Shown here: piece after piece, positions 38,268 to 51,857 of the stretch | How the letters are laid out: the number at the start of each line of letters is the position of its first letter | Numbering within the stretch: the first letter of the stretch is position 1 | IMG/VR virus record: IMGVR_UViG_3300031857_018470 | Coordinates: 1-51,928 of that record | Source: a virus | Reading direction: 5' to 3' (one strand) | Length of the DNA: 51,928 nucleotides | Position numbers and translations under genes: made by a program | The notes under the pieces: model-generated | Database searches by the model: none | What the model was told of the DNA's origin: nothing | The model's input: the letters and a program-made list of their open reading frames with translations, nothing else

Positions 38268-38296
38268 AATATACTATATTGTTTCTGGTGTGCCTA
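38268..38296 (-). promoter_or_regulatory. Promoter, TAGGC-N18-TATATT
   Basis: Sense TAGGC, 18 bases, TATATTTAAG, upstream of the AT-hook gene start at 38222. A second promoter of the same type (38355-38383) lies 87 bases further upstream. Confidence 0.7.
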
Positions 38297-38354
38297 ATTA
38301 ATCTTATTCTGCTTTTTTATTTACTTATTTTCACTTAATTAATTTAACATTCTA

Positions 38355-38383
38355 AATATACGGTGCTGTACCTTATGAGCCTA
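38355..38383 (-). promoter_or_regulatory. Promoter, TAGGC-N18-TATATT
   Basis: The TAG of TAGGC is the stop codon of the gene at 38381-38632. No gene lies between this promoter and the next (38268-38296), so it either adds to AT-hook gene expression or makes a short RNA. Confidence 0.7.
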
Positions 38384-38632
38384 ACTCATATTAGCCATTT
38401 GTTCTTTATATCGATTTAATATTTCTTCTAATTGTACAGCTATCTTATCCGCACTACCACTAACTCCAAAATACCATTTCACATCACTAATTTTAAAGTA
38501 GCGGTGCGGTTTGAGGCCTTTCGAATAAAGCTTACAGTCGCGAATAGAAATTATTAGATTCCAAATAGCTTTAGGCATAACGCCTCCACCTACATTGATG
38601 GTTTTTTCCAAATCGATTTCAAATTGTGTCAT
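38381..38632 (-). CDS. Hypothetical protein
   Basis: 83 residues from the MTQFEIDLE start at 38632; the longer reading begins inside the promoter. It contains KAIWNLIISIRDCKLYSKGL, then KPHRYFKISDVKWYFGVSGS and KIAVQLEEILNRYKEQM. A beta-alpha protein with no known family. The stop codon is part of the next promoter. Confidence 0.55.
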   Translation of the reverse strand: MTQFEIDLEKTINVGGGVMPKAIWNLIISIRDCKLYSKGLKPHRYFKISDVKWYFGVSGSADKIAVQLEEILNRYKEQMANMS

Positions 38633-38660
38633 GTGTTTATGTTTTAAATTTAACATTCTA

Positions 38661-38689
38661 AATATATGGTGTGTTATTTTGTTAGCCTA
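38661..38689 (-). promoter_or_regulatory. Promoter, TAGGC-N18-TATATT
   Basis: Follows the stop of 38690-38944 with no gap (TAATAGGC). Drives 38381-38632. Confidence 0.7.
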
Positions 38690-38944
38690 TTACTTAACCT
38701 CAATTACCAACGTACCTGTTACTTCTACTAATTTGCCGGTGGCTGTGTCTTCAAAATACCAACCATCTGATTTCTCCGAATTTGATACTGATCCTGTTGA
38801 TTCCCACTGTTTAATTATTTTTCCATCACAACCATACATTGTTATGATATGTGGTTTTCCTAATGAACTAAACTGTGCTGTTTCACTATCCTTACATGAT
38901 ATAAGCATCCCGATTGTCGCTAGTACTACAATTAGTTTTTTCAT
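38690..38944 (-). CDS. Small lipoprotein
   Basis: 84 residues. MKKLIVVLATIGMLISCKDS is a lipoprotein signal with Cys 17. The mature part forms a small beta domain (PHIITMYGCDGKIIKQWES, DGWYFEDTATGKLVEVTGTL). Pattern resembles short host-range or superinfection-related lipoproteins in Bacteroidota phages; role not proven. Leader AAAAACATG. Confidence 0.7.
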   Translation of the reverse strand: MKKLIVVLATIGMLISCKDSETAQFSSLGKPHIITMYGCDGKIIKQWESTGSVSNSEKSDGWYFEDTATGKLVEVTGTLVIEVK

Positions 38945-38984
38945 GTTTTTGTTTTTTTTAGTTTTAATTATTTATTACAAGTTA

Positions 38985-39013
38985 AATATATGATGTGGTG
39001 TTTTATAAGCCTA
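38985..39013 (-). promoter_or_regulatory. Promoter, TAGGC-N18-TATATT
   Basis: The TAG stop of 39011-39277 is the start of this promoter. Drives the lipoprotein gene 38690-38944. Confidence 0.7.
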
Positions 39014-39277
39014 ATCATTTTCCTTAAATTTATCTTGCATCGCTACAGCGTAATTATGAATCAATATTGAGTCAGCTTTGGTTTCATCACTCGCCCAATT
39101 CATAACATATATTTCGTGATACGAACGATGGTAATCAATTGAATCGTCTGCTTTGGAATCGGGTTTAGTAAATGTCACATACGAGCCATCGTTGTCGTCA
39201 GACATATCATAACCTAATGATTCGGCATACAAATACACTGCTTTGTTAATTGCGGATCTAATTTCTTTTTTTGTCAT
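39011..39277 (-). CDS. Hypothetical protein
   Basis: 88 residues: MTKKEIRSAINKAVYLYAES, then LGYDMSDDNDGSYVTFTKPD and SYHEIYVMNWASDETKADSI. It has a helical start and beta-like middle. No family recognised. Leader AACACATG. Confidence 0.55.
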   Translation of the reverse strand: MTKKEIRSAINKAVYLYAESLGYDMSDDNDGSYVTFTKPDSKADDSIDYHRSYHEIYVMNWASDETKADSILIHNYAVAMQDKFKEND

Positions 39278-39303
39278 GTGTTATTATTTTTAAGTGCAAG
39301 TTA

Positions 39304-39332
39304 AATATACGACCACGCGTTTTGTTTTCCTA
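39304..39332 (-). promoter_or_regulatory. Promoter variant, TAGGA-N18-TATATT
   Basis: Same spacing, with A instead of C in the upstream element; drives 39011-39277. It lies just past two hairpins that end the tRNA transcript. Confidence 0.6.
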
Positions 39333-39335
39333 TTA

Positions 39336-39355
39336 AAAACGCAGATAAGCGTTTT
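39336..39355 (-). terminator. Second hairpin after tRNA genes
   Basis: Perfect 7-bp stem AAAACGC/GCGTTTT with 6-base loop, followed on the sense strand by TTAATAGG. Together with 39363-39389 it forms a double barrier before the next promoter. Confidence 0.5.
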
Positions 39356-39362
39356 AGAAAAA

Positions 39363-39389
39363 TAGGAGGCGCCACCACAACGCCTCCTA
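39363..39389 (-). terminator. Intrinsic terminator after tRNA genes
   Basis: Perfect 9-bp stem TAGGAGGCG/CGCCTCCTA with 9-base loop, followed on the sense strand by TTTTTCT. It ends the transcript of the two tRNAs at 39426-39599. Confidence 0.7.
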
Positions 39390-39425
39390 AAACACACACA
39401 TGATAAACACTGCCTCGACAAGGAG

Positions 39426-39508
39426 TAGTCAGGACAGGATTCGAACCTGATTTAGGGCTTACGACCTATGATATTCTATTTACGACAACACCATGTCGCC
39501 ACCTGACT
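39426..39508 (-). tRNA. Atypical tRNA-like gene, anticodon uncertain
   Basis: 83 bases. The acceptor stem AGTCAGG/CCTGACT pairs fully, the T arm has CAGG-TTCGAAT-CCTG, and a D stem (CGAC/GTCG) is present. The middle does not fit a standard anticodon arm: about 14 extra bases precede a TAGG/CCTA stem with an 8-base loop (TCGTAAGC). GTCGTAA occurs twice. It may be a type II tRNA, one with an insertion, or a decayed copy. No CCA is encoded. Confidence 0.55.
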
Positions 39509-39513
39509 ATTTG

Positions 39514-39599
39514 TACTCGGGGCGGGAATCGAACCCGCACTCTCTTTTAGGGGAACAAGATTTTAAGTCTTGCGTGTCTACCTATTCCACCACCCGAGC
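39514..39599 (-). tRNA. tRNA-Leu (anticodon TAA)
   Basis: 86 bases. Acceptor GCTCGGG/CCCGAGT, anticodon arm CAAGA-CTTAAAA-TCTTG with anticodon TAA, long variable arm, T arm GCGGG-TTCGATT-CCCGC. Class II layout as expected for leucine. CCA is not encoded. It reads TTA codons, the most AT-rich Leu codon and common in this genome. Five bases separate it from the atypical tRNA. Confidence 0.9.
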
Positions 39600-39604
39600 A
39601 TACT

Positions 39605-39682
39605 CTAATTCATATACAATTCAAAATAACCTAACCTATAACTCCAAAACTGTTGTGTGGTGTGATGAATGATGTGTTTCAT
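39605..39682 (-). CDS. Possible 25-residue peptide upstream of the tRNAs
   Basis: A 25-codon ORF (MKHIIHHTTQQFWSYRLGYF plus five residues) starts at 39682 in the same AAAAAACATG leader as proven-looking accessory genes and ends with TAG 5 bases before tRNA-Leu. It is the only ORF between the promoter 39703-39731 and the tRNAs. It may be a leader peptide or chance. Confidence 0.35.
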   Translation of the reverse strand: MKHIIHHTTQQFWSYRLGYFELYMN

Positions 39683-39702
39683 GTTTTTTTTTATTTGAAA
39701 GA

Positions 39703-39731
39703 AATATATGTTAAAAACTTTTGTAAGCCAA
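39703..39731 (-). promoter_or_regulatory. Promoter, TTGGC-N18-TATATT
   Basis: Drives the short ORF and both tRNAs. Lies 3 bases after the stop of 39735-39944. Confidence 0.65.
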
Positions 39732-39734
39732 ATT

Positions 39735-39944
39735 TTACTTTGAAATTTCTTTTTTCATATTTTCCCATTTTTCAATCCAAGCTGAATTAGGATCTAGTTT
39801 TGTAAATTCATCAATCATTAGTTGAAGGAACCTTAACCTAGTTTTGGTATCAATTCTTTCATCAGTTGAAGTTGCTTCAAGGTGTCCTGCAATTCTTGCT
39901 AATGTACACCCTAATGTAAATGAGTCATTATTGGTAAATCCCAT
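39735..39944 (-). CDS. Hypothetical helical protein
   Basis: 69 residues: MGFTNNDSFTLGCTLARIAG, then HLEATSTDERIDTKTRLRFL and EFTKLDPNSAWIEKWENMKK. Two to three helices. No family recognised. Promoter 39973-40001. Confidence 0.55.
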   Translation of the reverse strand: MGFTNNDSFTLGCTLARIAGHLEATSTDERIDTKTRLRFLQLMIDEFTKLDPNSAWIEKWENMKKEISK

Positions 39945-39972
39945 GGTGTTTTTGTTTTAATTATTATACTTA

Positions 39973-40001
39973 AATATATGATTGAAATTTCAGTTAGCCA
40001 A
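39973..40001 (-). promoter_or_regulatory. Promoter, TTGGC-N18-TATATT
   Basis: Drives 39735-39944. Upstream of it is a gene-poor stretch to 40166. Confidence 0.65.
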
Positions 40002-40166
40002 ATTAATGTATATCCTTATATCTCTACTTTTGAGGTGAAAGGCTTGGGGGCGCAGGCGAAAGGGGTTACCATTCCACAACTCTCACCTACCACATTCACC
40101 CCCATCCTTGTCATATACACATAAACACACACAATAACTTATGACATAACCATTTTTACTTGTCAC
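40002..40166. other. 165-base gene-poor, GC-rich stretch
   Basis: A local GC island (CCTTTCGCCTGCGCCCCCAA on the sense strand) with C- and G-runs. A 32-codon minus ORF (40016-40114) is the only reading; its composition (Cys, Pro, Val-rich) is unlike its neighbours. It may be the 3' untranslated part of 40167-40313 or hold a small RNA. Confidence 0.35.
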
Positions 40167-40313
40167 CTATCTTCCTAATATCTCTTTAATTTCACTCGTT
40201 TTTCTTATCGCCTCTAACTTCTGTTCATACGTCATTCTATTTTGTATCTCATTTGGGTATGGTGCGTCTCCATAGTACCATTGTATCCACATTACCAAAT
40301 AATCTTGAACCAT
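40167..40313 (-). CDS. Small hypothetical protein
   Basis: 48 residues from ATG at 40313 (the longer reading starts inside the promoter at 40340-40368). MVQDYLVMWIQWYYGDAPYP, then NRMTYEQKLEAIRKTSEIKE. Aromatic-rich helical start. Unknown function. Confidence 0.55.
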   Translation of the reverse strand: MVQDYLVMWIQWYYGDAPYPNEIQNRMTYEQKLEAIRKTSEIKEILGR

Positions 40314-40339
40314 CGTGTTATCTTTTTTTATTTGAAGTA

Positions 40340-40368
40340 AATATATGATTGAAGGTTTTATTTGCCCC
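40340..40368 (-). promoter_or_regulatory. Promoter variant, GGGGC-N18-TATATT
   Basis: The upstream element lies in the last codons of 40358-40708 (W-G-K-stop). Drives 40167-40313. Confidence 0.55.
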
Positions 40369-40708
40369 ACATTTTTCTTCCCTGTTGTAATTTCCATTGT
40401 AAATCATTCCCGTCCTTAGCTTGTGATACTAACGTGATCATATTTGCTACAAAAATTGTATCACAATATCCTATCACATCATCATACTCCTCTAGTGGAA
40501 CAAGATTACCACTATCGTTCTCGTCCCACACTGCTATTTCTGCTGTGGTTGAGTTTATTATGTTTGTTTTTAGATCTTCATACGGGTCGGATAATGACCT
40601 GTTAAGATTTTTTCTGTCACAATAATTTCCTGTTCCCCATTGAACACTTATTGTTAGTCCGTTTGGGAATGTCATTTGGTATCCGTGGTTGGTGGTTGAT
40701 TTGAACAT
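40358..40708 (-). CDS. Conserved phage hypothetical protein
   Basis: 116 residues. YQMTFPNGLTISVQWGTGNYCDRK matches in part a family common in phages (an NG-(L/Y)-x-(V/I)-S-V-Q-W-G-x-G-N-Y-C core), function unknown. AEIAVWDENDSGNLVPLEEY and VANMITLVSQAKDG follow. The gene at 40794-41069 shares the FPNG/YPNG-type core, so the two may be distant relatives. Confidence 0.6.
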   Translation of the reverse strand: MFKSTTNHGYQMTFPNGLTISVQWGTGNYCDRKNLNRSLSDPYEDLKTNIINSTTAEIAVWDENDSGNLVPLEEYDDVIGYCDTIFVANMITLVSQAKDGNDLQWKLQQGRKMWGK

Positions 40709-40740
40709 GTGTGTTTATTATTTTTAATTATTATGAACTG

Positions 40741-40769
40741 AATATACTATCTGTTTCTCCGTATTCCTA
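40741..40769 (-). promoter_or_regulatory. Promoter variant, TAGGA-N18-TATATT
   Basis: Same 18-base spacing; drives 40358-40708. Confidence 0.6.
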
Positions 40770-40793
40770 TTTACTGGATTAAGCTTTTGCTTT

Positions 40794-41069
40794 TTAGAAT
40801 GGTGTGTAAGATAGTAATACTACTTTATCGGTTTGATACGTTATTCCATTCCACGATACTTCTATGTCATTTAAGCCGTCACTAGGTTCTGCTTTGCTTT
40901 TGAGAGCAAATACGTGTACAAATGATGGTTTGGTTCGTTTATTAAACTTTTTGAAATTCTTAGTTGCTTCTTGTAGTGATGAGCCTTTTCCCCATCCACC
41001 CATTCCACCTTGAACCACATATAACAGTTGTAATCCGTTTGGATAAAATTCTAATGTTGCTTTTTCCAT
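40794..41069 (-). CDS. Small beta-rich hypothetical protein
   Basis: 91 residues. LEFYPNGLQLLYVVQGGMGG, then GWGKGSSLQEATKNFKKF and IEVSWNGITYQTDKVVLL. The first part echoes the PNG-x-x-(V/L) core of 40358-40708. No function known. Promoter 41084-41112. Confidence 0.55.
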   Translation of the reverse strand: MEKATLEFYPNGLQLLYVVQGGMGGWGKGSSLQEATKNFKKFNKRTKPSFVHVFALKSKAEPSDGLNDIEVSWNGITYQTDKVVLLSYTPF

Positions 41070-41083
41070 TTCTTTTTTATTTG

Positions 41084-41112
41084 AATATACAATGTTAAAA
41101 TTTGGAAGCCTA
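41084..41112 (-). promoter_or_regulatory. Promoter, TAGGC-N18-TATATT
   Basis: Drives 40794-41069. Confidence 0.7.
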
Positions 41113-41120
41113 TTATTGAA

Positions 41121-41303
41121 TTACCCTCTTTCTAACTCTACTATATCACTTTCGGGCCATATCCCACCCACTGCTTTTTCAATCGCAACTAGATAATTCC
41201 ATGCTTCATCAGGTATTTTGTGTAATTGCCTTGTTTCGTCCAAATAATTTGAAAATGCACTGATATTTTCCCTAATGGTTTCTAAGCGTTTTTCGTGTGT
41301 CAT
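41121..41303 (-). CDS. Small hypothetical protein
   Basis: 60 residues: MTHEKRLETIRENISAFSNY, then LDETRQLHKIPDEAWNYLVA, ending IWPESDIVELERG. Helical. Function unknown. Confidence 0.55.
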   Translation of the reverse strand: MTHEKRLETIRENISAFSNYLDETRQLHKIPDEAWNYLVAIEKAVGGIWPESDIVELERG

Positions 41304-41316
41304 ATCTTTTTATTTG

Positions 41317-41345
41317 AATATATGGTGTTAAATTTTAGAGGCCAA
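41317..41345 (-). promoter_or_regulatory. Promoter, TTGGC-N18-TATATT
   Basis: The upstream element is inside the last codons of 41328-41561. Drives 41121-41303. Confidence 0.65.
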
Positions 41346-41561
41346 GTGATCTTTTCTCAATTGATTTTCAAGTTCACTTTTATCATCAAGTATACCATCA
41401 ATGTCTTGCCACTTCGCAGTCATAAGTAACTGTTTCAACATTTGATGTTCCATTCCGACTTGTTCAATGAACCATTGCATTGTTTCCCCGTCCACTTCCA
41501 TTTCTTTGAATTGTTCAATGATAGGATAAAGTACGATATGAGTTGTTGATTCGTGAGTCAT
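41328..41561 (-). CDS. Small helical hypothetical protein
   Basis: 77 residues: MTHESTTHIVLYPIIEQFKE, then QWFIEQVGMEHQMLKQLLMT and DKSELENQLRKDHLASKI. Helical and amphipathic. Five bases from 41567-41764, so possibly co-transcribed. Function unknown. Confidence 0.55.
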   Translation of the reverse strand: MTHESTTHIVLYPIIEQFKEMEVDGETMQWFIEQVGMEHQMLKQLLMTAKWQDIDGILDDKSELENQLRKDHLASKI

Positions 41562-41566
41562 GTGTT

Positions 41567-41764
41567 TTATGCTTTAAATTTGATATACAATGATTGTGCT
41601 TCGTTGAAGTTAGTATACACTAGGTTCTCGAAACAGAAGCTACCGGTTTTACTAAACACTGCTTTCACTTCATCGTTCCATGTTGTTTTTTGGAACTTCA
41701 ATTTGTTGTCAATACTATTCAAGTTTTGAATCAGTTTGGTGCGAATTTCTTTTTTGATTTTCAT
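41567..41764 (-). CDS. Small hypothetical protein
   Basis: 65 residues from ATG at 41764: MKIKKEIRTKLIQNLNSIDN, then FQKTTWNDEVKAVFSKTGSF and ENLVYTNFNEAQSLYIKFKA. The earlier in-frame start lies in the promoter leader. Function unknown. Confidence 0.55.
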   Translation of the reverse strand: MKIKKEIRTKLIQNLNSIDNKLKFQKTTWNDEVKAVFSKTGSFCFENLVYTNFNEAQSLYIKFKA

Positions 41765-41792
41765 GTGTGTGTTTTTTAAATTTAACAAAGTA

Positions 41793-41821
41793 AATATAAG
41801 TTACTAAATCTTGTAAGCCTA
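41793..41821 (-). promoter_or_regulatory. Promoter, TAGGC-N18-TATATT
   Basis: Drives 41567-41764 and probably 41328-41561. Confidence 0.7.
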
Positions 41822-41834
41822 TTCTTTAATTAAA

Positions 41835-42152
41835 TTATTCATTCACAAAACCAATTGAATCCATATTGGTATACTCACTCATACCCCCACCTTGTGGTAC
41901 ATTCACTAGCGCTAATGTTGTAACCATAAATCGATAAGCACTGATGTAGGCTGCTTTACTTGTTTTAGTCATTCGTGTAAATGAAGCGGTAGTCATAAAC
42001 GTTTCCATTTCCTCTATTTTCATACTAACTTCGAGGATATGTGCCATCCCTGTTCCGGGTATGATCATTGGCATTTCTTCTTCAACCTTTGGTTTACGAG
42101 TACGTTTTGGTTTATCTTGTTCCCAACTAAATTTAAATCCGATCTTGTTCAT
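41835..42152 (-). CDS. Hypothetical protein with basic linker
   Basis: 105 residues. The N-terminus is MNKIGFKFSWEQDKPKRTRK, then MIIPGTGMAHILEVSMKIEE. A helical segment (SFTRMTKTSKAAYISAYRFM) follows. The KPKRTRKPKVEEE stretch resembles a short basic linker. Function unknown. Confidence 0.55.
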   Translation of the reverse strand: MNKIGFKFSWEQDKPKRTRKPKVEEEMPMIIPGTGMAHILEVSMKIEEMETFMTTASFTRMTKTSKAAYISAYRFMVTTLALVNVPQGGGMSEYTNMDSIGFVNE

Positions 42153-42181
42153 GGTGTGTGTTTTTAAATTATTATGAGTTA

Positions 42182-42210
42182 AATATAAGTTAATGTACTT
42201 TGAAAGCCTA
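42182..42210 (-). promoter_or_regulatory. Promoter, TAGGC-N18-TATATT
   Basis: Starts directly after the TAA of 42211-42432. Drives 41835-42152. Confidence 0.7.
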
Positions 42211-42432
42211 TTAATATGCTCTCATTACTTCACTTAAAGGCACATTGTACCCGGTGTGATCAATTGTTGGTTCAAATTCACCTGTGTCCTTATCCATTAT
42301 GAATTCAATATCCAACCAATCCGTTTCACTATCTTCAATTACTAATTTAACCTGTTCGCCGCAATCGGAGAGTATCACTCCATAACCACAATTATTTGAC
42401 CATTGATAGTACCCGTGAATTTTCTTGTCCAT
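42211..42432 (-). CDS. Small beta-rich hypothetical protein
   Basis: 73 residues: MDKKIHGYYQWSNNCGYGVI, then LSDCGEQVKLVIEDSETDWL. Acidic, beta-like. Function unknown. Confidence 0.55.
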   Translation of the reverse strand: MDKKIHGYYQWSNNCGYGVILSDCGEQVKLVIEDSETDWLDIEFIMDKDTGEFEPTIDHTGYNVPLSEVMRAY

Positions 42433-42460: not shown

Positions 42461-42489
42461 AATATACTATACTAAACTTTAGATGCCTA
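42461..42489 (-). promoter_or_regulatory. Promoter, TAGGC-N18-TATATT
   Basis: The element lies in the last codons of 42479-42853. Drives 42211-42432. Confidence 0.65.
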
Positions 42490-42985: not shown

Positions 42986-43014
42986 AATATAAGTTTAAGA
43001 ATTTTGAAGACCTA
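42986..43014 (-). promoter_or_regulatory. Promoter variant, TAGGT-N18-TATATT
   Basis: The element lies in the last codons of 42995-43231. Drives 42840-42977 and 42479-42853. Confidence 0.6.
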
Positions 43015-43259: not shown

Positions 43260-43288
43260 AATATAAGTTCAAAGATCTAGTAAGCCTA
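43260..43288 (-). promoter_or_regulatory. Promoter, TAGGC-N18-TATATT
   Basis: The TAG stop of 43286-43501 is its first three bases. Drives 42995-43231. Confidence 0.7.
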
Positions 43289-43501
43289 TAGTAAACTTAT
43301 TTCTATAACCTCTTGAATACGGCCAATAATAATTGGATCATCAACAACAAAACCATCCTTATCACCACACTGCCATTCAATTACTTCACCATTACTTGCA
43401 TTCATCCATTCAATGTAATAATAAGTTGTTCCATCATCTTCCCTTACTTCCCATTCTAGTTTCATTACAGCCGGGATTGTATTTGTTAGTGTTGCTTCCA
43501 T
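43286..43501 (-). CDS. Small beta-rich hypothetical protein
   Basis: 71 residues: PAVMKLEWEVREDDGTTYYY, then IEWMNASNGEVIEWQCGDKD and IIIGRIQEVIEISLL. Beta strands dominate. Function unknown. Confidence 0.55.
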   Translation of the reverse strand: MEATLTNTIPAVMKLEWEVREDDGTTYYYIEWMNASNGEVIEWQCGDKDGFVVDDPIIIGRIQEVIEISLL

Positions 43502-43534: not shown

Positions 43535-43564
43535 AATATAACAAATAGAATTTCGTAGGTCCAA
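43535..43564 (-). promoter_or_regulatory. Promoter variant, TTGGA-N19-TATATT
   Basis: The one promoter of the set with a 19-base spacer. Drives 43286-43501. Confidence 0.5.
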
Positions 43565-44204: not shown

Positions 44205-44233
44205 AATATAAGTTAATAGATTTTGAAGACCTA
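44205..44233 (-). promoter_or_regulatory. Promoter variant, TAGGT-N18-TATATT
   Basis: Shares its TAG with the stop of 44231-44422. Drives 43977-44180 and 43568-43963. Confidence 0.65.
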
Positions 44234-44422
44234 TTCTTCTTCTTCTAATTCCTCATCTACAAACAACTCAGGATCATATTCATCAAGAATATCTTGACAT
44301 ACCTTAATCATAAGTTCTCGATAGCGATGTTCAGAATCACTTAGATCATTATTAATACTGCGATAACAATCTAATAAATCACGGTAGGTATTTTCAAACC
44401 TACAATAGCCCATGTTTGCCAT
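44231..44422 (-). CDS. Conserved small phage protein, MANMxYCRFEN family
   Basis: 63 residues. MANMGYCRFENTYRDLLDCY is the conserved start of a short phage family; the end is a poly-acidic tail (DEELEEEE). Helical. Function unknown. Confidence 0.65.
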   Translation of the reverse strand: MANMGYCRFENTYRDLLDCYRSINNDLSDSEHRYRELMIKVCQDILDEYDPELFVDEELEEEE

Positions 44423-44440: not shown

Positions 44441-44469
44441 AATATAAGTTCAAAAATCTAGTAAGCCTA
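44441..44469 (-). promoter_or_regulatory. Promoter, TAGGC-N18-TATATT
   Basis: Shares its TAG with the stop of 44467-44715. Drives 44231-44422. Confidence 0.7.
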
Positions 44470-44715
44470 TTCTTTTCCTTCAGCCAAATAATTAGCTAAA
44501 TCATCATAGTACGATACTATCTCATCATGAGCACTATCACTCAACACATCTCCTTCTACCAAGTCTCTAACTATTTCACGAATATATAAAAGCGCGTTGT
44601 AGTTTTGATCTTCAAATGGTTCACCGTTAAACGAATCACTAAATTGATCTGCCACAGCCCAACCACGTTGAGAGTTGATATATGACCTAACTAAATCTTC
44701 TGTTGATATTCTCAT
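44467..44715 (-). CDS. Hypothetical helical protein
   Basis: 82 residues: MRISTEDLVRSYINSQRGWA, then YNALLYIREIVRDLVEGDVL and EIVSYYDDLANYLAEGKE. Helical with acidic faces. Function unknown. Leader AAGGTTATG. Confidence 0.55.
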   Translation of the reverse strand: MRISTEDLVRSYINSQRGWAVADQFSDSFNGEPFEDQNYNALLYIREIVRDLVEGDVLSDSAHDEIVSYYDDLANYLAEGKE

Positions 44716-44733: not shown

Positions 44734-44762
44734 AATATAAATTAAAAAACTCTAAAAGCCTT
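44734..44762 (-). promoter_or_regulatory. Promoter variant, AAGGC-N18-TATATT
   Basis: TAAGGC overlaps the TAA stop of 44761-45045. Drives 44467-44715. Confidence 0.6.
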
Positions 44763-45071: not shown

Positions 45072-45100
45072 AATATAAATTTAAAGAAAAAGGAGGCCTA
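45072..45100 (-). promoter_or_regulatory. Promoter, TAGGC-N18-TATATT
   Basis: Shares its TAG with the stop of 45098-45481 and overlaps the terminator hairpin 45086-45115. Drives 44761-45045. Confidence 0.65.
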
Positions 45101-45115
45101 CTCTTTGACCTCCTT
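45086..45115 (-). terminator. Intrinsic terminator overlapping a promoter
   Basis: Sense AAGGAGG, 12-base loop, CCTCCTT, then TTTC. The stem covers the last codons of 45098-45481 and the upstream element of the next promoter. Confidence 0.6.
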
Positions 45116-45481
45116 ATAAATTGTATCAATCAAATCACTCAATTCATCTGCATCTGGCTCATCCATACCCATCACAATTTCACTAGCCAAAGCACTACTA
45201 TCAACAACCACAGAAATTGTATTTCCATCAAGACTCAATTCACAAACATCCTCATCAAAACTCATATCTGATATGTTGTCTTCAACCCTAGATATAAACT
45301 GCTGGTGCATATCAAGAACAAAATGAGTTAGTTCTGTTCTAGTAAATGTGAACTCACCATTTTCAATTTCATCATTCATGTCTGTTTCATCTTCCATTTT
45401 ATCCATTTCACTTTGCAATTCATCCATTTGTGCTTGCATTTCAGCCATTTTGGCTTTCATTTCTTCGAGTTTATTTTTCAT
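45098..45481 (-). CDS. Acidic coiled-coil protein
   Basis: 127 residues. A near-perfect heptad coil (EEMKAKMAEMQAQMDELQSE) fills the first third, then an acidic stretch, then helices (RTELTHFVLDMHQQFISRVE) and a C-terminal acidic part (DEPDADELSDLIDTIYKEVK). Very acidic overall. Possibly a DNA-mimic or assembly factor; inference only. Confidence 0.55.
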   Translation of the reverse strand: MKNKLEEMKAKMAEMQAQMDELQSEMDKMEDETDMNDEIENGEFTFTRTELTHFVLDMHQQFISRVEDNISDMSFDEDVCELSLDGNTISVVVDSSALASEIVMGMDEPDADELSDLIDTIYKEVKE

Positions 45482-45500: not shown

Positions 45501-45529
45501 AATATAAATTTAAGAATCTAGAAGGCCCA
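45501..45529 (-). promoter_or_regulatory. Promoter variant, TGGGC-N18-TATATT
   Basis: Directly follows the TGA of 45530-45895. Drives 45098-45481. Confidence 0.6.
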
Positions 45530-45895
45530 TCAATCAGAAAAATGAAATGAGTACATAAAATTCTCTTCATAATCATCCACATCAGCCATTTCCCTTAGCA
45601 TATCGGCTGTGACACTGTTGTAAAATTCCTCACCACGACCAACCACATCAGCAGTCAAATCACTCCAACCATCATCACTACAATCAAAACCACCACCACC
45701 ATCATTACCTAACCAAGCGGCTTCAAATTTATTAGCTAGTTCTGCTTGTTTCTGCCTAGCAAATTCCTCTAATTGATTGAAAATGTCTTCATCTAATTCA
45801 GACCATTCATTTCCAATTCGATCATAGTCGTGATCTACTTTCCAAGTAGCATCTTCAATTAATCTCCAAAGTTCTTTTTCTGTTAGTTTTGTCAT
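45530..45895 (-). CDS. Acidic hypothetical protein
   Basis: 121 residues. KELWRLIEDATWKVDHDYDR, then FNQLEEFARQKQAELANKFE, a Gly/Asp-rich loop (WLGNDGGGGFDCSDDGW), and a helical end. Acidic. Function unknown. Confidence 0.55.
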   Translation of the reverse strand: MTKLTEKELWRLIEDATWKVDHDYDRIGNEWSELDEDIFNQLEEFARQKQAELANKFEAAWLGNDGGGGFDCSDDGWSDLTADVVGRGEEFYNSVTADMLREMADVDDYEENFMYSFHFSD

Positions 45896-45916: not shown

Positions 45917-45945
45917 AATATAAGTTTAAAAACCTTAAAAGCCTA
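45917..45945 (-). promoter_or_regulatory. Promoter, TAGGC-N18-TATATT
   Basis: Drives 45530-45895. Confidence 0.7.
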
Positions 45946-45947: not shown

Positions 45948-46394
45948 TTAAGAACTTGCTGTACAAGTTGATTTAACTACTCCAGTGTGGTTCTTTAATG
46001 TGTAAGTCATTATTGTACCTTGTGGTCCACCACAAACATTTATCACACAGTTACTCATAATAAATGAATGTCCATTCAAGTTACCTGTGATGCGAATATC
46101 CTCACCCTGAAACGTTGCCCAAAAATACATCACAGTGAAATTATACTGCGGTGTTTGATAACGAAATGTCCTACCTATGGGTTCATCATTAAAACCCAAC
46201 AACGTTTGAACCCGATACGGGTGTAAATTAGTTACACTAATGTTGTTATACGTTGTTGAGAAATCAAGTGTCCAATCAAGTGAGTCCCGTTGTTGTAGAG
46301 GCATTTGCCTCAGTTCACTTTCATTTACAAGTGGTTCCTTTTCACACGACATCATTGCCAGTGCCATTGATACTAATACAAATGCTTTTTTCAT
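45948..46394 (-). CDS. Lipoprotein
   Basis: 148 residues from ATG at 46394 (the longer reading enters the promoter). MKKAFVLVSMALAMMSCEKE is a lipoprotein signal peptide with Cys 17. The mature part is beta-rich (NISVTNLHPYRVQTLLGFND, IRITGNLNGHSFIMSNCVIN) with a C-terminal VKSTCTASS. Surface exposed or periplasmic, perhaps a superinfection or receptor-masking lipoprotein; role inferred. Confidence 0.65.
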   Translation of the reverse strand: MKKAFVLVSMALAMMSCEKEPLVNESELRQMPLQQRDSLDWTLDFSTTYNNISVTNLHPYRVQTLLGFNDEPIGRTFRYQTPQYNFTVMYFWATFQGEDIRITGNLNGHSFIMSNCVINVCGGPQGTIMTYTLKNHTGVVKSTCTASS

Positions 46395-46418: not shown

Positions 46419-46447
46419 AATATACAATCGATTTTCTTGGGAGCCTA
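46419..46447 (-). promoter_or_regulatory. Promoter, TAGGC-N18-TATATT
   Basis: Drives the lipoprotein gene 45948-46394. Confidence 0.7.
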
Positions 46448-47443: not shown

Positions 47444-47704
47444 TTATAGTTTTTCGATTATGTTATCAATTAATACTTTCACTCCGTTTGAGCGATTTGG
47501 GAATAGTATTGATACTACTTCTCTTTTTTCTTTAGGTCCAAATCCTGATACTTGTTTGATTGTACCTATTATTGCTCCATTTTCAAATCCAACTTTGACT
47601 GTGTCACCAACATAAGCTACTTGACCTGATCTTAGTGTAACACACCATTGTGCTCTGTCATAGTCATAGTTGAATGCTTCATTTGAGTGTCTTGTGCTTA
47701 TCAT
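47444..47704 (-). CDS. Small beta-rich hypothetical protein
   Basis: 86 residues: SNEAFNYDYDRAQWCVTLRS, then GQVAYVGDTVKVGFENGAII and RSNGVKVLIDNIIEKL. The pattern VGDTVKVGFENGAIIGTIK resembles a small SH3-like barrel. Leader AAGGTTATG. Unknown function. Confidence 0.55.
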   Translation of the reverse strand: MISTRHSNEAFNYDYDRAQWCVTLRSGQVAYVGDTVKVGFENGAIIGTIKQVSGFGPKEKREVVSILFPNRSNGVKVLIDNIIEKL

Positions 47705-47723: not shown

Positions 47724-47752
47724 AATATAAGTTTAAAGGTTTAGAGGGCCTA
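47724..47752 (-). promoter_or_regulatory. Promoter, TAGGC-N18-TATATT
   Basis: Drives 47444-47704 and the three genes that follow it (47161, 46912, 46506). Confidence 0.7.
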
Positions 47753-47767
47753 ATTAAAAGGCCCTCT
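47743..47767 (-). terminator. Hairpin over stop codon and promoter element
   Basis: Perfect 8-bp stem AGAGGGCC/GGCCCTCT with 9-base loop; no T-run after it. It covers the stop of 47754-47861 and the upstream part of the next promoter. Confidence 0.4.
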
Positions 47768-47861: not shown

Positions 47862-47883
47862 TTTGTTTTTGTTTTAATTAGTT

Positions 47884-47960
47884 TGGTGGGCCATCCTGGA
47901 TTCGAACCAAGCACCTTCGCTTTATGAGAGCGTCGCTCTAACCTACTGAGCTAAAAGCCC
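47884..47960 (-). tRNA. tRNA-Met (anticodon CAT), CCA encoded
   Basis: 77 bases. Acceptor GGGCTTT/ATGGCCC (one mismatch), D arm AGCTCAGTAGGTTAGAGC, anticodon arm ACGCT-CTCATAA-AGCGA, T arm CTTGG-TTCGAAT-CCAGG, then discriminator A and CCA. CAT may be Met or a lysidine-modified Ile; sequence alone does not decide. Confidence 0.85.
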
Positions 47961-47981
47961 ATTTTACTTTTTAACAAATTG

Positions 47982-48010
47982 AATATACAATCAAAGATTT
48001 TGAAAGCCTA
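47982..48010 (-). promoter_or_regulatory. Promoter, TAGGC-N18-TATATT
   Basis: Shares its TAG with the stop of 48008-48220. Drives tRNA-Met and the 35-residue protein. Confidence 0.7.
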
Positions 48011-48220
48011 AACATTATCTTCATCAAATCCTCCAAAGATATCTTTCCATTCATCTTCGGTTATACCTGTCATTAAAAATTCTCGTTCTGAAGGTGTTAG
48101 GTTTGGGAACGCATTTTGTATCAAAACACCTTCTTCATATTTCATTATTTGCTCATCTGTAATATCCAGTTCTACTTCACGAGTAATACCTGTGGCTTGA
48201 GATGTTCTAGTTACTTTCAT
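48008..48220 (-). CDS. Conserved phage protein, MKVTRTS family
   Basis: 70 residues from ATG at 48220 (ATGA overlap with the previous gene). MKVTRTSQATGITREVELDI, then NLTPSEREFLMTGITEDEWK match from memory a short, widespread phage family of unknown function. Confidence 0.7.
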   Translation of the reverse strand: MKVTRTSQATGITREVELDITDEQIMKYEEGVLIQNAFPNLTPSEREFLMTGITEDEWKDIFGGFDEDNV

Positions 48221-48444
48221 TTTGAAACAGTTATATCGTTTAAACACATTGCATGACTCCACATACCCGAATCTTCATATAAACTCATAAGTAATTCTAT
48301 ATCATGTTTAGATGTAATCATGTCATGAACTACTTTGTTAAGCAATTCTTTACCATAAGTGTTAGCTATTGATTCAAAGTATTCACTTTCAGTTAGATAC
48401 TGTTCAATAGCGTGTTTTGTTTCTTCAGTCATCTGTTTTGCCAT
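48217..48444 (-). CDS. Small helical hypothetical protein
   Basis: 75 residues: MAKQMTEETKHAIEQYLTES, then YFESIANTYGKELLNKVVHD and EDSGMWSHAMCLNDITVSK. Helical. Overlaps 48425-48556 by 20 bases. Function unknown. Confidence 0.55.
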   Translation of the reverse strand: MAKQMTEETKHAIEQYLTESEYFESIANTYGKELLNKVVHDMITSKHDIELLMSLYEDSGMWSHAMCLNDITVSK

Positions 48445-48556
48445 TACGTTGTTTTCTTTTATATAGTTTCTTATTTGGAACCACTTTCTGAGTAGTTCTA
48501 ACTTGTTGGATTTGTAAATCCCAGCGTGTGTTGCCTGTTGTGTTTTGTGCTTTCAT
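48425..48556 (-). CDS. Small basic protein
   Basis: 43 residues: MKAQNTTGNTRWDLQIQQVR, then TTQKVVPNKKLYKRKQRNGK, ending TDD. Basic, first gene of a three-gene unit from the promoter at 48567-48595. May bind nucleic acid; no proof. Confidence 0.5.
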   Translation of the reverse strand: MKAQNTTGNTRWDLQIQQVRTTQKVVPNKKLYKRKQRNGKTDD

Positions 48557-48566
48557 AACAGTAATA

Positions 48567-48595
48567 AATATAAGATTGCTTATTTTGAGAGCCTA
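48567..48595 (-). promoter_or_regulatory. Promoter, TAGGC-N18-TATATT
   Basis: Drives 48425, 48217 and 48008. Confidence 0.7.
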
Positions 48596-48603
48596 AGCTA
48601 AGT

Positions 48604-48846
48604 TTAAAGTGGATGTTCATCATCATCTCCACTATCTAACTCAACATCATCTTCATGATCATAAAATGTATCATTTACTTCTTCATACACTTCATCAAAC
48701 AATTCCATTTCCATTAGCTGTAAAGCGTTTATGGCTTGTTCTCCTGAGAGATAATTATTCACAATCCAATTGAGAATAGTTTCATGTGATACTCCTTTAT
48801 CAAGTAGGAGTTCTAGCATTTGGTGAGCTTGTTTTCGGTTAGTCAT
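48604..48846 (-). CDS. Small acidic helical protein, paralogue of next gene upstream
   Basis: 80 residues. MTNRKQAHQMLELLLDKGVS, then NWIVNNYLSGEQAINALQLM and a long acidic tail (YEEVNDTFYDHEDDVELDSG). Its first 50 residues align with 48858-49070 (NRE/KxAxxxLExL ... NDYxxGxxAxxALxxxE). Function unknown. Confidence 0.6.
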   Translation of the reverse strand: MTNRKQAHQMLELLLDKGVSHETILNWIVNNYLSGEQAINALQLMEMELFDEVYEEVNDTFYDHEDDVELDSGDDDEHPL

Positions 48847-48857
48847 ATAATGTTTTT

Positions 48858-49070
48858 TTAGTTTTCGTCTTTAAACTTATATTTTGTTTCTTCCTCTTCA
48901 AATTCTTCTTCACCAAAGAACTCATCTTCAGCTGCTAGTAGTGCATCATACGCGTCACTACCTTCCATATAATCATTAATTAAGAATTCTAACAACATTT
49001 GACTTGACAATCCATCTTCAGTAGTGAGCTTTTCAAGTAACGCTACTGCACGTTCACGATTCGATTTCAT
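48858..49070 (-). CDS. Small acidic helical protein, paralogue of 48604-48846
   Basis: 70 residues. MKSNRERAVALLEKLTTEDG, then LLEFLINDYMEGSDAYDALL and an acidic tail (EFFGEEEFEEEETKYKFKDE). Starts inside the end of the RadA-like gene (ATGA). Acidic proteins next to a DNA ATPase could be DNA mimics or regulators; inference. Confidence 0.6.
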   Translation of the reverse strand: MKSNRERAVALLEKLTTEDGLSSQMLLEFLINDYMEGSDAYDALLAAEDEFFGEEEFEEEETKYKFKDEN

Positions 49071-49879
49071 TCTGCTTCTCTTGCTTTTAAGTTACTATAA
49101 ACAATTTGAGTACCTGTTAGTTGGAAATACAATTTATCACTAGTATTACCATTCCTATTCTTAGTAAATTCCATATATGAAGCACCTCCATCACGTTCAG
49201 ATTCTCTCCTCATTTCCATCATAGCATCAGTCATATGTTTCAATTTATTACTACCTACAAACACTCCTGCTTTAGTAACTTGTTGAATCAACATAAACGA
49301 AGTATACTTATTTGTTTTGTTATTGCCTTTATTGTTTTGGGTACAAACATCTACTAACCACGATTCAGCAGTTTTCCTATCCCAACCCATATCAGTTCTA
49401 ACATCATCAATAATCTCAGCAATACTATCAACCATAACTAGATCCCAACCCATACTAAGTACTTGTTCAACCATATCTTTAGCATTATGTTGAGCATAAT
49501 CACTCACAAACAAAGTATCAACATAACCAAACTGAGGATACCTTTGAGTATACTTGAACATTTGTTTCTTACCCATCTCACCTGAAATGAATAAGCACTT
49601 ACGATCAGGATTATTCAACTGAACTGATGCTAGAAAATCAAGCAACACAGTTGTTTTACCTACACCTGGATCACCTACACACATCATGTTTGAGGCGCAA
49701 GGCATTCCACCCTCATGACTGATAAGCAAGTCTAGAATTGTTCTACTTTCCATTTGCTCCATCATCCTGGAGTCAATGTTTAGATTCTTCAGCTTAGTGA
49801 TTTGGCTAAAGTCAATTTGAATGTGCTTTGGTTCTGCCATTTCTTTGTTTTTAGTTGATGGACGACCTCTTTTTTTCAT
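49067..49879 (-). CDS. RadA/RecA-like ATPase with N-terminal AT-hook motif
   Basis: 270 residues. Walker A GDPGVGKTT (69-77), Walker B LVMVD (147-151), a sensor Gln in MLIQQV (196-201), HMTDAMMEM (215-223) and TKNRNG (239-244), close to the KNRFG motif of RadA/Sms. It is a RecA-fold DNA ATPase for recombination or strand exchange. The extra N-terminus MKKRGRPSTKN carries KRGRPS, an AT-hook core, which would add minor-groove DNA binding. First gene of a three-gene unit from 49905-49933. Confidence 0.75.
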   Translation of the reverse strand: MKKRGRPSTKNKEMAEPKHIQIDFSQITKLKNLNIDSRMMEQMESRTILDLLISHEGGMPCASNMMCVGDPGVGKTTVLLDFLASVQLNNPDRKCLFISGEMGKKQMFKYTQRYPQFGYVDTLFVSDYAQHNAKDMVEQVLSMGWDLVMVDSIAEIIDDVRTDMGWDRKTAESWLVDVCTQNNKGNNKTNKYTSFMLIQQVTKAGVFVGSNKLKHMTDAMMEMRRESERDGGASYMEFTKNRNGNTSDKLYFQLTGTQIVYSNLKAREAE

Positions 49880-49904
49880 AACCTTTATTTTTTTTGTTTA
49901 TATA

Positions 49905-49933
49905 AATATATGATTATAAGTCTTGAAAGCCTA
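49905..49933 (-). promoter_or_regulatory. Promoter, TAGGC-N18-TATATT
   Basis: Shares its TAG with the stop of 49931-50179. Drives the RadA-like ATPase and the two acidic proteins. Confidence 0.7.
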
Positions 49934-50179
49934 TCTTGTTAATTCTTCTATATTAATATTATATTCATCAAACAACTCATTTAAAATATTCAATGTTAGT
50001 TCAATACCCGGATCATACTTATCTTGATCGTTAAGGTTATCGGCTTCAGCATATACTTTACCACGAAGATTGAATCTGATATGCCAAAGCATTTGTGCCA
50101 TATCAGATGCTTTAACAGCAGCCATATGTTCCATCCTATCATCGGGATCATTTAAATCAAATTCTAATATGCCTTTCAT
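49931..50179 (-). CDS. Conserved phage protein, MKGILEF family
   Basis: 82 residues. MKGILEFDLNDPDDRMEHMA, then KASDMAQMLWHIRFNLRGKV and LNILNELFDEYNINIEEL match from memory a short phage family found next to recombination genes. Helical. Function unknown. Promoter at 50201-50229. Confidence 0.65.
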   Translation of the reverse strand: MKGILEFDLNDPDDRMEHMAAVKASDMAQMLWHIRFNLRGKVYAEADNLNDQDKYDPGIELTLNILNELFDEYNINIEELTR

Positions 50180-50200
50180 ATCTTTTATTTTAACTTTCTT

Positions 50201-50229
50201 AATATAAGATATCCTCTTTTGTAAGCCTA
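50201..50229 (-). promoter_or_regulatory. Promoter, TAGGC-N18-TATATT
   Basis: Drives 49931-50179. Confidence 0.7.
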
Positions 50230-50233
50230 AATT

Positions 50234-50488
50234 TTAGGACTTATTTTCATAATTTTCATTCCAATATTGATAAAACAAATCATCAATTGATTTACCCATT
50301 TTGTCCTGGGTACGCATGAAGTGGATCAGCCTAACCATATGTTCTTGTTCCATTTGAATGGCTTGGTATTTTATCTTGATCATTTCCTTGGACATTTCAT
50401 TCAAGGTTATTTCATGTTGAAGATATGCTATTAGTTTATCGTCAAGGTTATCATATAACCATTTAACGGGTGTCTTATTTTGTTCCAT
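50234..50488 (-). CDS. MEKKQTAxEWL-family protein, copy 2 (divergent)
   Basis: 84 residues. MEQNKTPVKWLYDNLDDKLI, then IKIKYQAIQMEQEHMVRLIH, ending LFYQYWNENYENKS. Same layout as its neighbours, but the first residues differ (MEQNKTPVKWL). Overlaps 50475-50678 by 14 bases. Confidence 0.6.
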   Translation of the reverse strand: MEQNKTPVKWLYDNLDDKLIAYLQHEITLNEMSKEMIKIKYQAIQMEQEHMVRLIHFMRTQDKMGKSIDDLFYQYWNENYENKS

Positions 50489-50678
50489 ATACTTTATTAT
50501 AGTATTCCTCTACTGTTTTATAATGCAAACCAACTGCCCCATGTACCCATGAGTTAGCTATTTGGTCTTTTTCCATTTTCTTAGCTTGTTGTAATATAGC
50601 ATACCACTCAAATTTATCTTGTGGTGTGTCCATTAGGCGCTCAAATAACCATTCAGTTGCTGTTTGTTTCTTTTCCAT
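50475..50678 (-). CDS. MEKKQTAxEWL-family protein, copy 3
   Basis: 67 residues. MEKKQTATEWLFERLMDTPQ, then AILQQAKKMEKDQIANSWVH and a terminal YYNKVYGTK. Overlaps both neighbours (14 and 26 bases), so the three copies form one translational unit. Confidence 0.65.
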   Translation of the reverse strand: MEKKQTATEWLFERLMDTPQDKFEWYAILQQAKKMEKDQIANSWVHGAVGLHYKTVEEYYNKVYGTK

Positions 50679-50910
50679 CTATTTGTACCATTTCGTTAGT
50701 GTTAATAATATTGTTATCACTTACCTTACTTCCATAAGTTAATAATAGATATTCAGCAGTTAATCCTGTTGCTCTACTTTTCTCAACTATATCTATTATC
50801 TGTTGCTTCTCCCTTTCTATAGCTTGTTCTTGAATGTGAACAGGAATAAATTCCATATTCTTATGAATTTCTTCTATCAACCATTCTACTGCTGTTTGTT
50901 TCTTTTCCAT
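50653..50910 (-). CDS. MEKKQTAxEWL-family protein, copy 4
   Basis: 85 residues. MEKKQTAVEWLIEEIHKNME, then IQEQAIEREKQQIIDIVEKS. Its C-terminus is extended (NTNEMVQIDGKETNSN) and encoded in the overlap with copy 3, so the typical YYN end is lost. No promoter was found directly upstream; the terminator at 50931-50964 lies 21 bases before the start. Confidence 0.6.
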   Translation of the reverse strand: MEKKQTAVEWLIEEIHKNMEFIPVHIQEQAIEREKQQIIDIVEKSRATGLTAEYLLLTYGSKVSDNNIINTNEMVQIDGKETNSN

Positions 50911-50930
50911 AGGTTTTATTTTTAAATTTT

Positions 50931-50964
50931 AAAAAATAGGCCGGTGTCACACATCACCGGCCTA
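50931..50964 (-). terminator. Intrinsic terminator
   Basis: Perfect 10-bp stem TAGGCCGGTG/CACCGGCCTA with 8-base loop, followed on the sense strand by TTTTTT. Ends the DUF932-like gene transcript. Confidence 0.75.
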
Positions 50965-50981
50965 ATCACCAAACCAACTAA

Positions 50982-51785
50982 TTAACTCAAACAATATTCT
51001 GTTGCAAGTTCATACAACTTGCTATTCAATACGATGTCCTGATTGAAATTCTTAATCTTACGTGCTTTACGAGTTTTGGTTGAGTAACCATAGTTGAAAT
51101 CACCATTAATTACTTTTTCCTGAATTCGATTAAACACACTCCACAAGTCACTTCCAGCATCCTCATCACGAGTTGCTTTAGTGAAGTCATTATAGTCAAT
51201 TGTAATACGTTTAACTTCATCCTCACTAAACCTAGCTTCGAGGGCTCGTTTAGCAAACTCCTCAATTTGTTTCTCTGTGAGTTGAGTTTGTTTAAACTTA
51301 TTCATTGACTCAACTGTGAGTGGGAGTTTCTCTACCATCGATGTAATTGTCTTTTGTAGTTCTTCAAAATCATATCCAAAATGCCTAATCTTCAAATCAG
51401 CAAAATCCTGAGTTGAGATCACTAATCCATTCTCACAAACCAACCTAAACAAACCAGCTCGGAATGTAAACGCATTCTTACCATCTGAACTATTAGTTAA
51501 TAGAATTTGAGGAAACACTGTGTCACCATCTGATCCATCAATAACAATATCATTGTTACGGAATACAACTAGATGTTTTTGATAACCAGCATTTTTACGG
51601 GCGCGAACCTCTTTAGCATCAACAACACCCCAACCTAATTTAGACATATCCTCTATAATTTTGTGGGTTGGAATGTGTGAATACTTAGCACTAGTATCAC
51701 TTGATCCTTTTTCAGCAAAAACTGATTTTGCTTTTTCTTTTACTTGTTCCATTGTCAGGAACTCATTTGTTTGAAGATTTAACAT
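50982..51785 (-). CDS. DUF932/phage-plasmid-like protein (TIGR03299-like)
   Basis: 267 residues. HLVVFRNNDIVIDGSDGDTV, then LLTNSSDGKNAFTFRAGLFR, LVCENGLVISTQDF and IRHFGYDFEELQKTITSMVE are the hallmark order of the DUF932 family (phage and plasmid proteins often annotated TIGR03299, function unknown). The end has LWSVFNRIQEKVINGDFNYG, also typical. Own promoter (51829-51857) and own terminator (50931-50964) make it a single-gene unit. Confidence 0.75.
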   Translation of the reverse strand: MLNLQTNEFLTMEQVKEKAKSVFAEKGSSDTSAKYSHIPTHKIIEDMSKLGWGVVDAKEVRARKNAGYQKHLVVFRNNDIVIDGSDGDTVFPQILLTNSSDGKNAFTFRAGLFRLVCENGLVISTQDFADLKIRHFGYDFEELQKTITSMVEKLPLTVESMNKFKQTQLTEKQIEEFAKRALEARFSEDEVKRITIDYNDFTKATRDEDAGSDLWSVFNRIQEKVINGDFNYGYSTKTRKARKIKNFNQDIVLNSKLYELATEYCLS

Positions 51786-51828
51786 AACTTTTTATTTTTT
51801 TAGTTTGAATTACTTATTTAACATCTTA

Positions 51829-51857
51829 AATATAAGATACACTCTCCAGGAAGCCAA
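51829..51857 (-). promoter_or_regulatory. Promoter, TTGGC-N18-TATATT
   Basis: Drives the DUF932-like gene. Starts 2 bases after the stop of the partial gene at 51860-51928. Confidence 0.7.

Follow-up and report, generated by a model that had tools for sequence, protein, structure and literature searches.

Predicted early-type promoters of unusual consensus, merged with stop codons and terminators, in a family of T4-like Bacteroidota phages

T4-type phages have promoter-early stem-loop (PeSL) cassettes (Arbiol 2010 and Comeau 2014, as cited in PMC4503421), which are reportedly linked to gene shuffling. In T4-like phages, early promoters stand before novel open reading frames (ORFs), middle promoters carry a MotA box in the arrangement (a/t)(a/t)(a/t)TGCTTtA-N11-13-TataAT, and late promoters are of the gp55/TATAAATA type (PMC1524935). 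The promoters of the Bacteroidota primary sigma factor (sigma-ABfr) consist of -33 TTTG and -7 TANNTTTG (PMC6847099, PMC9723704). We analyzed a 51,928-base IMG/VR fragment of a T4-like myophage, IMGVR_UViG_3300031857_018470 (the window, meaning this whole stretch), in which a two-box element, here called class 1, is repeated before small accessory genes. Class 1 is predicted to be a real, family-specific early-type promoter system of unusual consensus, with stop codon, terminator and promoter unusually merged, and by analogy it is best read as the Bacteroidota-phage counterpart of the T4 early promoters and PeSL cassettes. It resembles them in having numerous near-identical promoters within a hypervariable zone, where each small accessory gene has its own. 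It differs in belonging to Bacteroidota phages, in a consensus unrelated to the T4 early promoter, and in its departure from the -7 rule of its own host. The phage family is abundant, with hundreds of viral contigs and one cultured representative, Flavobacterium phage vB_FspM_immuto_2-6A (immuto; 160,410 bases; host Flavobacterium sp. LMO8), and a literature search limited to open papers found no promoter class described for it.

The structural half of the window is syntenic with immuto, the gene order baseplate wedge, tail proteins, primase and NadR being common to both, and the minus strand, which carries nearly every gene, is the sense strand. TWGGC-N18-TATATT was found 24 times on the minus strand and 0 times on the plus strand of the whole window, against a first-order Markov expectation of 0.01 in the accessory part. 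TWGGC/TATATT spacers of 8 to 30 bases other than 18 gave at most one copy each per strand. When the box was relaxed to [TAG][ATG]GG[CTA], 32 N18 sites were obtained above coordinate 35,700, 29 of them inside the range in which an earlier note on this DNA had claimed sense-strand TAGGC-N18-TATATT sites with a fixed spacer. These counts confirmed the claim, and the contrary pattern of random spacers or plus-strand copies was looked for and not seen. A weight matrix built from the window sites, a check proposed in the same note, gave 34 sense and 0 antisense matches at a score of at least 10, and the outlying sites at 762 (TATGTT), 15656 (TATAAT), 35784 and 36528 proved real, with good scores. 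Sites at 43535 (TGGAC) and 43994 (TATATC) are degenerate, and a match to the pattern at 37490, located within an ORF, is probably due to chance. A scan for E. coli-type sigma-70 promoters stayed below the shuffle expectation and was useless for the window.

The aligned window sites share TWGGC, TTNCARAA, A-W-C right before TATATT and then T/C-A, and the full class-1 consensus is TWGGCTTNCARAA-N6-A-W-C-N-TATATTTA. TAGGC, first proposed as the conserved element, is therefore real but only part of a longer conserved stretch (TWGGCTTNCARAA, plus the A-W-C before TATATT). The -7 part is TATATTTA, in which A replaces the G ending the Bacteroidota TANNTTTG box in 29 of 32 window sites; the suggested fit of the -7 part to TANNTTTG was not borne out, the near-invariant G of the host at -5 being systematically A. 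An Rfam scan found two tRNAs only, tRNA-Leu (taa) at 39513-39599 (-) and tRNA-Met (cat) at 47884-47960 (-), both within the small-gene array and downstream of a class-1 site. The class-1 site about 20 bases before tRNA-Met argues that the element acts on transcription and not on translation. The class-1 sites of the window, with one associated hairpin, are as follows.

38268-38296 (-): class-1 site, TAGGC-N18-TATATT
38355-38383 (-): class-1 site, its TAG the stop of ORF 38381-38656
38661-38689 (-): class-1 site for ORF 38381-38656
38985-39013 (-): class-1 site, its TAG the stop of ORF 39011-39277
39304-39332 (-): class-1 site (TAGGA) for ORF 39011-39277
39703-39731 (-): class-1 site (TTGGC) upstream of tRNA-Leu 39513-39599
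39973-40001 (-): class-1 site (TTGGC) for ORF 39735-39944
40340-40368 (-): class-1 site, GGGGC variant
40741-40769 (-): class-1 site (TAGGA) for ORF 40358-40708
41084-41112 (-): class-1 site for ORF 40794-41069
41317-41345 (-): class-1 site for ORF 41121-41303
41793-41821 (-): class-1 site, promoter and leader 87% identical over 63 bases to the copy at 43260
42182-42210 (-): class-1 site for ORF 41835-42152
42461-42489 (-): class-1 site for ORF 42211-42432
42986-43014 (-): class-1 site (TAGGT)
43260-43288 (-): class-1 site, its TAG the stop of ORF 43286-43501
44205-44233 (-): class-1 site (TAGGT), its TAG the stop of ORF 44231-44422
44441-44469 (-): class-1 site, its TAG the stop of ORF 44467-44715
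44734-44762 (-): class-1 site, AAGGC variant
45072-45100 (-): class-1 site, its TAG the stop of ORF 45098-45481
45090-45115 (-): intrinsic-terminator-like hairpin with a 9 bp stem, the 3' arm using part of the promoter's TAGGCCTCCTT, T-run in the spacer
45501-45529 (-): class-1 site, TGGGC variant
45917-45945 (-): class-1 site for ORF 45530-45895
46419-46447 (-): class-1 site for ORF 45948-46394
47724-47752 (-): class-1 site for ORF 47444-47704
47982-48010 (-): class-1 site, its TAG the stop of ORF 48008-48262, before tRNA-Met 47884-47960
48567-48595 (-): class-1 site
49905-49933 (-): class-1 site, its TAG the stop of ORF 49931-50179
50201-50229 (-): class-1 site for ORF 49931-50179
51829-51857 (-): class-1 site (TTGGC) for the conserved DUF932 gene 50982-51785
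36528-36556 (-): class-1 site (TTGGC)
35784-35812 (-): class-1 site (TTGGC) ahead of a four-gene operon ending in a sigma-like gene
15656-15684 (-): class-1 variant (TATAAT) directly before the DNA primase gene 14717-15649
762-790 (-): class-1 variant (TATGTT)

Relatives were gathered from IMG/VR as 80 related loci found via one protein, and the longer ones, among them records of 155 and 160 kb, were analysed over their whole length; some are closely related, so that the counts are not independent and the p-values optimistic. Over 12 sets, T[AT]GG-N19-TATATT stood at most 80 bases upstream of genes in 276 of 1,437 cases in sense and in 3 in antisense orientation, and such recurrence of a sigma-type promoter ahead of small accessory genes within a hyperplastic region is a PeSL-type trait. 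For the spacing seen in the window, the sense and antisense counts by relative were 48 versus 1 (G001), 49 versus 2 (G002), 31 versus 4 (G005), 19 versus 0 (G011), 41 versus 3 (G019) and 45 versus 4 (G020). TWGGC-N18-TATATT[TC]A was found 188 times in sense versus 2 in antisense across the relatives, with a single copy at N17 and none at N19. When the upstream element alone served as the query, TATATT followed at the fixed distance in 79 of 87 sites. Nearly all class-1 sites are intergenic, with a median of 23-40 bases before the ATG in all but one fragment. Shared proteins tie all 39 IMG/VR stretches that have the strict pattern to this phage family, and the pattern with a spacer one base too long gave 0 matches in 2.9 million viral contigs and 2 in genome contigs. 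The lineages have their own dialects, namely TAGGCTTNCAAAA...CTTATATTTA in the window, TTAGGATTACA...TATATTTAA in G002, TTTGGCTTCC...GTTCGTATATTCACGG in G012 and AGTTG[CG]C...TTCNTATATTTAGGTAT in immuto. In immuto, 22 of 23 class-1 sites lie in a single array at 60-76 kb that adjoins the tail genes as in the window, and the arrays of relatives occupy the same genome position, with high gene turnover. Besides small genes of unknown function, class 1 precedes genes for DUF932, primase, SSB, Tmk, FolE, DpdA, NrdF, polymerase and GroES, and in the sets examined it was never found before an annotated structural gene. The DUF932 protein gene (50982-51785, -) is conserved in the family and has a class-1 site in most relatives examined.

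Promoters of the hosts served as a contrast. As a positive control, the upstream regions of four Flavobacteriales genomes gave TAHHTTTG 145 versus 48, TTG-N19 18 versus 2 and TTG-N20 9 versus 2; class 1 was absent from the same regions and TATATTTA was not in excess. TWGGC-N18-TATATTTA was no commoner than its reversed control in 148 Flavobacteriales genomes, and the idea of a phage-specific element held, class 1 being confined to the phage family without signal in host genomes. Upstream regions of the phage sets gave TAHHTTTG 63 versus 82 and TATATTTA 309 versus 26. The host-type TAHHTTTG was not enriched in G019, G020, G001 and G002, and the intergenic DNA of complete immuto had 0 in sense versus 9 in antisense, a hint that host-type promoters are actively avoided. 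Class 1 does not have the TAnnTTTG -7 box, TATATTTA/TATATTCA standing in its place, and TG occupied the final two -7 positions in 2 of about 360 class-1 sites. The upstream box is closer to the host. TTG-type sites have TTG-N20-TATATT, TAG-type sites have A where TTG has its second T, and the upstream element of immuto and G012 is TTG[GC]C / TTTGGC. Since TTG-N20-TATATT falls within the TTG-N19/20 spacing of the host, which peaks at both N19 and N20, TAGGC looks like an in-register variant of the host -33 box with extra conserved bases. TAGGC does differ from TTTG, as had been pointed out, but to call it unrelated to the host box was too strong. Class 1 thus shares with sigma-ABfr promoters a TTG/TAG box in the same register and the TA..TTT of the -7 box; it differs in having A and not G at -5, in its strict spacing, in the long conserved upstream block TWGGCTTNCARAA, and in showing no enrichment in host genomes. 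The missing G at -5 is a bigger departure from the host rule than the -33 change, and the predicted phage promoters keep the -33/-7 layout but not the hallmark host base.

A second motif, class 2, is ATATTTATAAYAAA, a -10-only element without a -33 partner. It stands mostly before genes of the head and tail, among them those for tail spike, head completion, sheath and tape measure; TATTTATAAYAA was found upstream of genes 69 times in sense versus 2 in antisense, and the core ATATTTA is common to the class-1 and class-2 consensus. A putative phage sigma factor gene and the class-2 motifs of the window are listed below.

33641-34345 (-): gp55-like phage sigma factor gene (predicted), sigma region 2
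33626-33634 (-): class-2 (late-type) motif TATTTATAA-CAAA directly after the sigma gene
30319-30327 (-): class-2 late-type motif before gene 29957-30313
19417-19425 (-): class-2 late-type motif before gene 18747-19400
9060-9068 (-): class-2 late-type motif before gene 8530-9045
1756-1764 (-): class-2 late-type motif before gene 878-1735

The product of gene 33641-34345 matched Pfam Sigma70_r2 (E 7e-4, below the curated cut-off) and PHROG 234, late sigma (E 8e-4). Many sigma factors were among the nearest neighbours of its predicted fold, with weak scores, and a search of PDB sequences with the sigma profile returned nothing. No profile match to sigma region 4 was obtained in six phage records. 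The gene is kept in 85 distinct relatives and is a core gene of the family. A class-1 site precedes the sigma-ending operon in 46 of 65 loci (0 antisense), and the class-2 motif (TATTTATW) follows directly after the sigma gene in 74 of 85. A sigma-ending operon behind class 1 and a class-2 motif after it would follow the T4 logic of early promoters, gp55 and late promoters. Likeness to the T4 late system (PMC1524935) lies in a phage sigma that appears to have region 2 only and in a -10-only AT-rich promoter before structural genes; the cores differ (ATATTTATAAYAAA in class 2, TATAAATA in T4), and the sigma of this family is only remotely related (PHROG 234, at the E value given above). The counterpart of the gene in immuto is annotated only as a hypothetical protein. 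The sigma-like gene has about 60 extra residues in three relatives, G002 (L095:7453-8130 region), L026 and L125; in G002 these form a single internal block close to region 2 and could be an inserted element or domain.

Where a gene ended close upstream of a TAG-type site, the TAG of the -33 box was that gene's stop codon in 8 of 18 cases in the window and in 83 of 186 across the sets. The eight overlaps listed in the earlier note were all correct, the automated count likewise giving exactly 8 sites, and its picture of nearly one promoter per accessory gene with a stop codon inside it was supported. About one third of sites would be expected to overlap if the upstream frame ran on randomly, so that stop sharing may be economy rather than selection. 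The ratio of TAG to TTG was 145:33 before genes of at most 150 residues and 33:23 before longer genes (p 0.001). Terminator-like hairpins were present at 31 of 379 class-1 sites versus about 1.5 expected from mononucleotide shuffles; they are a minority, with just one in the window. In most of them the hairpin encloses the -33 box and the T-run falls within the spacer, as in AAGGCTTGGGAAACCAAGCCTTCTTTCTTATATT of G019. Terminator-like hairpins joined with promoters, and a possible tie of such cassettes to gene shuffling, may recall PeSL elements; the class-1 stop or terminator can overlap the -33 box, whereas in PeSL cassettes it reportedly stands beside the promoter. The upstream neighbour had changed in 147 of 181 ortholog pairs with a class-1 promoter versus 329 of 785 without. 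At non-consensus positions, ortholog promoters resembled each other more closely than did promoters drawn at random from the same phages (0.444 versus 0.368, p 7e-7). Changed neighbours together with retained promoter similarity argue that gene and promoter stay together through shuffling, and the proposal of gene-plus-promoter units was upheld by them. Recombination junctions at promoters were not seen in the 181 ortholog pairs, and a strain-level comparison (L135, L169) showed no exchange events, the sequences being too similar.

We consider it fairly probable that class 1 comprises the early, possibly also delayed-early, sigma-type promoters of T4-like Bacteroidota phages, turned over together with their genes, and that a gp55-like sigma then reads class 2. 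Class-1 transcripts would begin 5-8 bases past TATATT, with a leader of about 20-25 bases. Each small accessory gene, several replication genes and a tRNA would have its own copy, and class 1 would also drive the operon ending in the gp55-like sigma factor. The phage sigma would then most likely read class 2 before the structural genes, giving a T4 cascade with new sequences. The array would be a turnover zone where genes are gained and lost as gene-plus-promoter units and promoter copies supply short homology; the promoter would also give the upstream stop codon (TAG) at many sites and, in a minority, a terminator hairpin across the -33 box. The most likely reader of class 1 would be the core RNA polymerase of the host together with a sigma whose region 4 contacts the -33 box, namely the host primary sigma, because the phage sigma appears without region 4 and host-consensus promoters are not enriched in the phages; the host sigma would tolerate, or be modified to accept, TATATTTA. 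The lack of host-consensus promoters argues for class 1 as the entry class, and the lack of G at -5 suggests that something may help the host enzyme; we gave more weight to the former argument. Several points weigh against the early-promoter proposal. The G at -5 is near-invariant in F. johnsoniae primary-sigma promoters (PMC6847099), and its systematic avoidance is odd if an unmodified host holoenzyme reads class 1. The motifs described in text for F. psychrophilum are TAnnTTTG variants, TAnnTTGY, sigma-54 and ECF, and none of the six sigma motifs in that text resembles TATATTTA (PMC9723704). The sigma scores are weak but concordant in pointing to a gp55-like phage sigma with region 2, and the structural model is moderate (pLDDT 76, pTM 0.42). 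Many array genes of the window have no detectable terminator, and genes were called with a simple ATG-ORF caller. Going further, we tentatively suggest, as a possibility, that the family swapped TANNTTTG for TATATTTA plus a fixed block and reprograms host RNA polymerase via an injected or early-made factor, with promoter, stop and terminator foldable into a portable module of 30-45 bases.

The strict 18-base spacing, the conserved bases within the spacer, the systematic loss of the host's G at -5 and the absence of enrichment in host genomes would also suit a middle class, read only after a phage-made or injected factor (an activator at -33, a MotA/AsiA-like sigma appropriator or an extra sigma) had shifted specificity. 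T4 middle promoters likewise have an upstream box at a nearly fixed distance in place of the -35, but the class-1 box and distance both differ from theirs, and no MotA family was among the families listed (top 25) for 92 immuto proteins. A delayed class 1 would need a host-consensus class for the first genes, and TAHHTTTG is neither present in sense in immuto (0 versus 9) nor enriched in G019, G020, G001 and G002. No candidate activator was identified, although a virion-injected factor would escape the argument from the missing host class. On balance we regard a middle class as rather doubtful. It is less likely still that both classes are read by the conserved phage sigma (33641-34345); ATATTTA in both consensus sequences, the core status of its gene and the dissimilarity of both classes to host promoters would fit, but class 1 has a strict -33 element and region 4 was not detected in the phage genomes, and class 1 precedes the sigma gene in most loci, leaving no start unless the protein is injected. 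No PHROG match to a phage RNA polymerase was obtained among ten large unknown immuto proteins. A role of the repeats in recombination or packaging, or as translation leaders, in place of a promoter function appears very improbable. Two promoter-leader copies (41793, 43260) are alike to a degree that suits recombination, matching at 87% over 63 bases, and gene order is reshuffled around the repeats; against this stand the two-box -33/-7 anatomy in host register, the position 20-40 bases before start codons and also before a tRNA gene, the sense-only orientation and the functional split against a second promoter class. A translation leader in particular was ruled out by strand, spacer and tRNA placement. 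The window is 70% A+T and TATATT is frequent in it (102 and 92 copies per strand), yet a chance or compositional artefact was ruled out for practical purposes by the strand count of 24 versus 0 at an expectation of 0.01, and by the 39 viral stretches with the correct spacer versus none with the longer one.

The near-identical predicted promoters, standing singly before dozens of small genes, probably offer a way into how these phages take over the host. With the motif, early genes can be marked, among them those of dozens of small proteins of unknown function that probably act on the host, and a predicted transcription map for immuto can be drawn. It also raises the question of how transcription proceeds from promoters without the most conserved base of host promoters, and illustrates a way of packing and exchanging genes in which stop, terminator and promoter are merged.

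Outside the family, neither promoter class was enriched in the Flavobacteriia phages FCL-2 and phi38:1, and neither gave a signal in 35 kb of the Microcystis phage Mel-JY01 (PP395634.1, 145-180 kb). Mel-JY01, which is assigned to a cyanobacterium, encodes proteins related to the sigma factor (38%) and to a large tail-region protein (30%) of the Bacteroidota phage family, and its host assignment, or the breadth of the phage family, may deserve a look.

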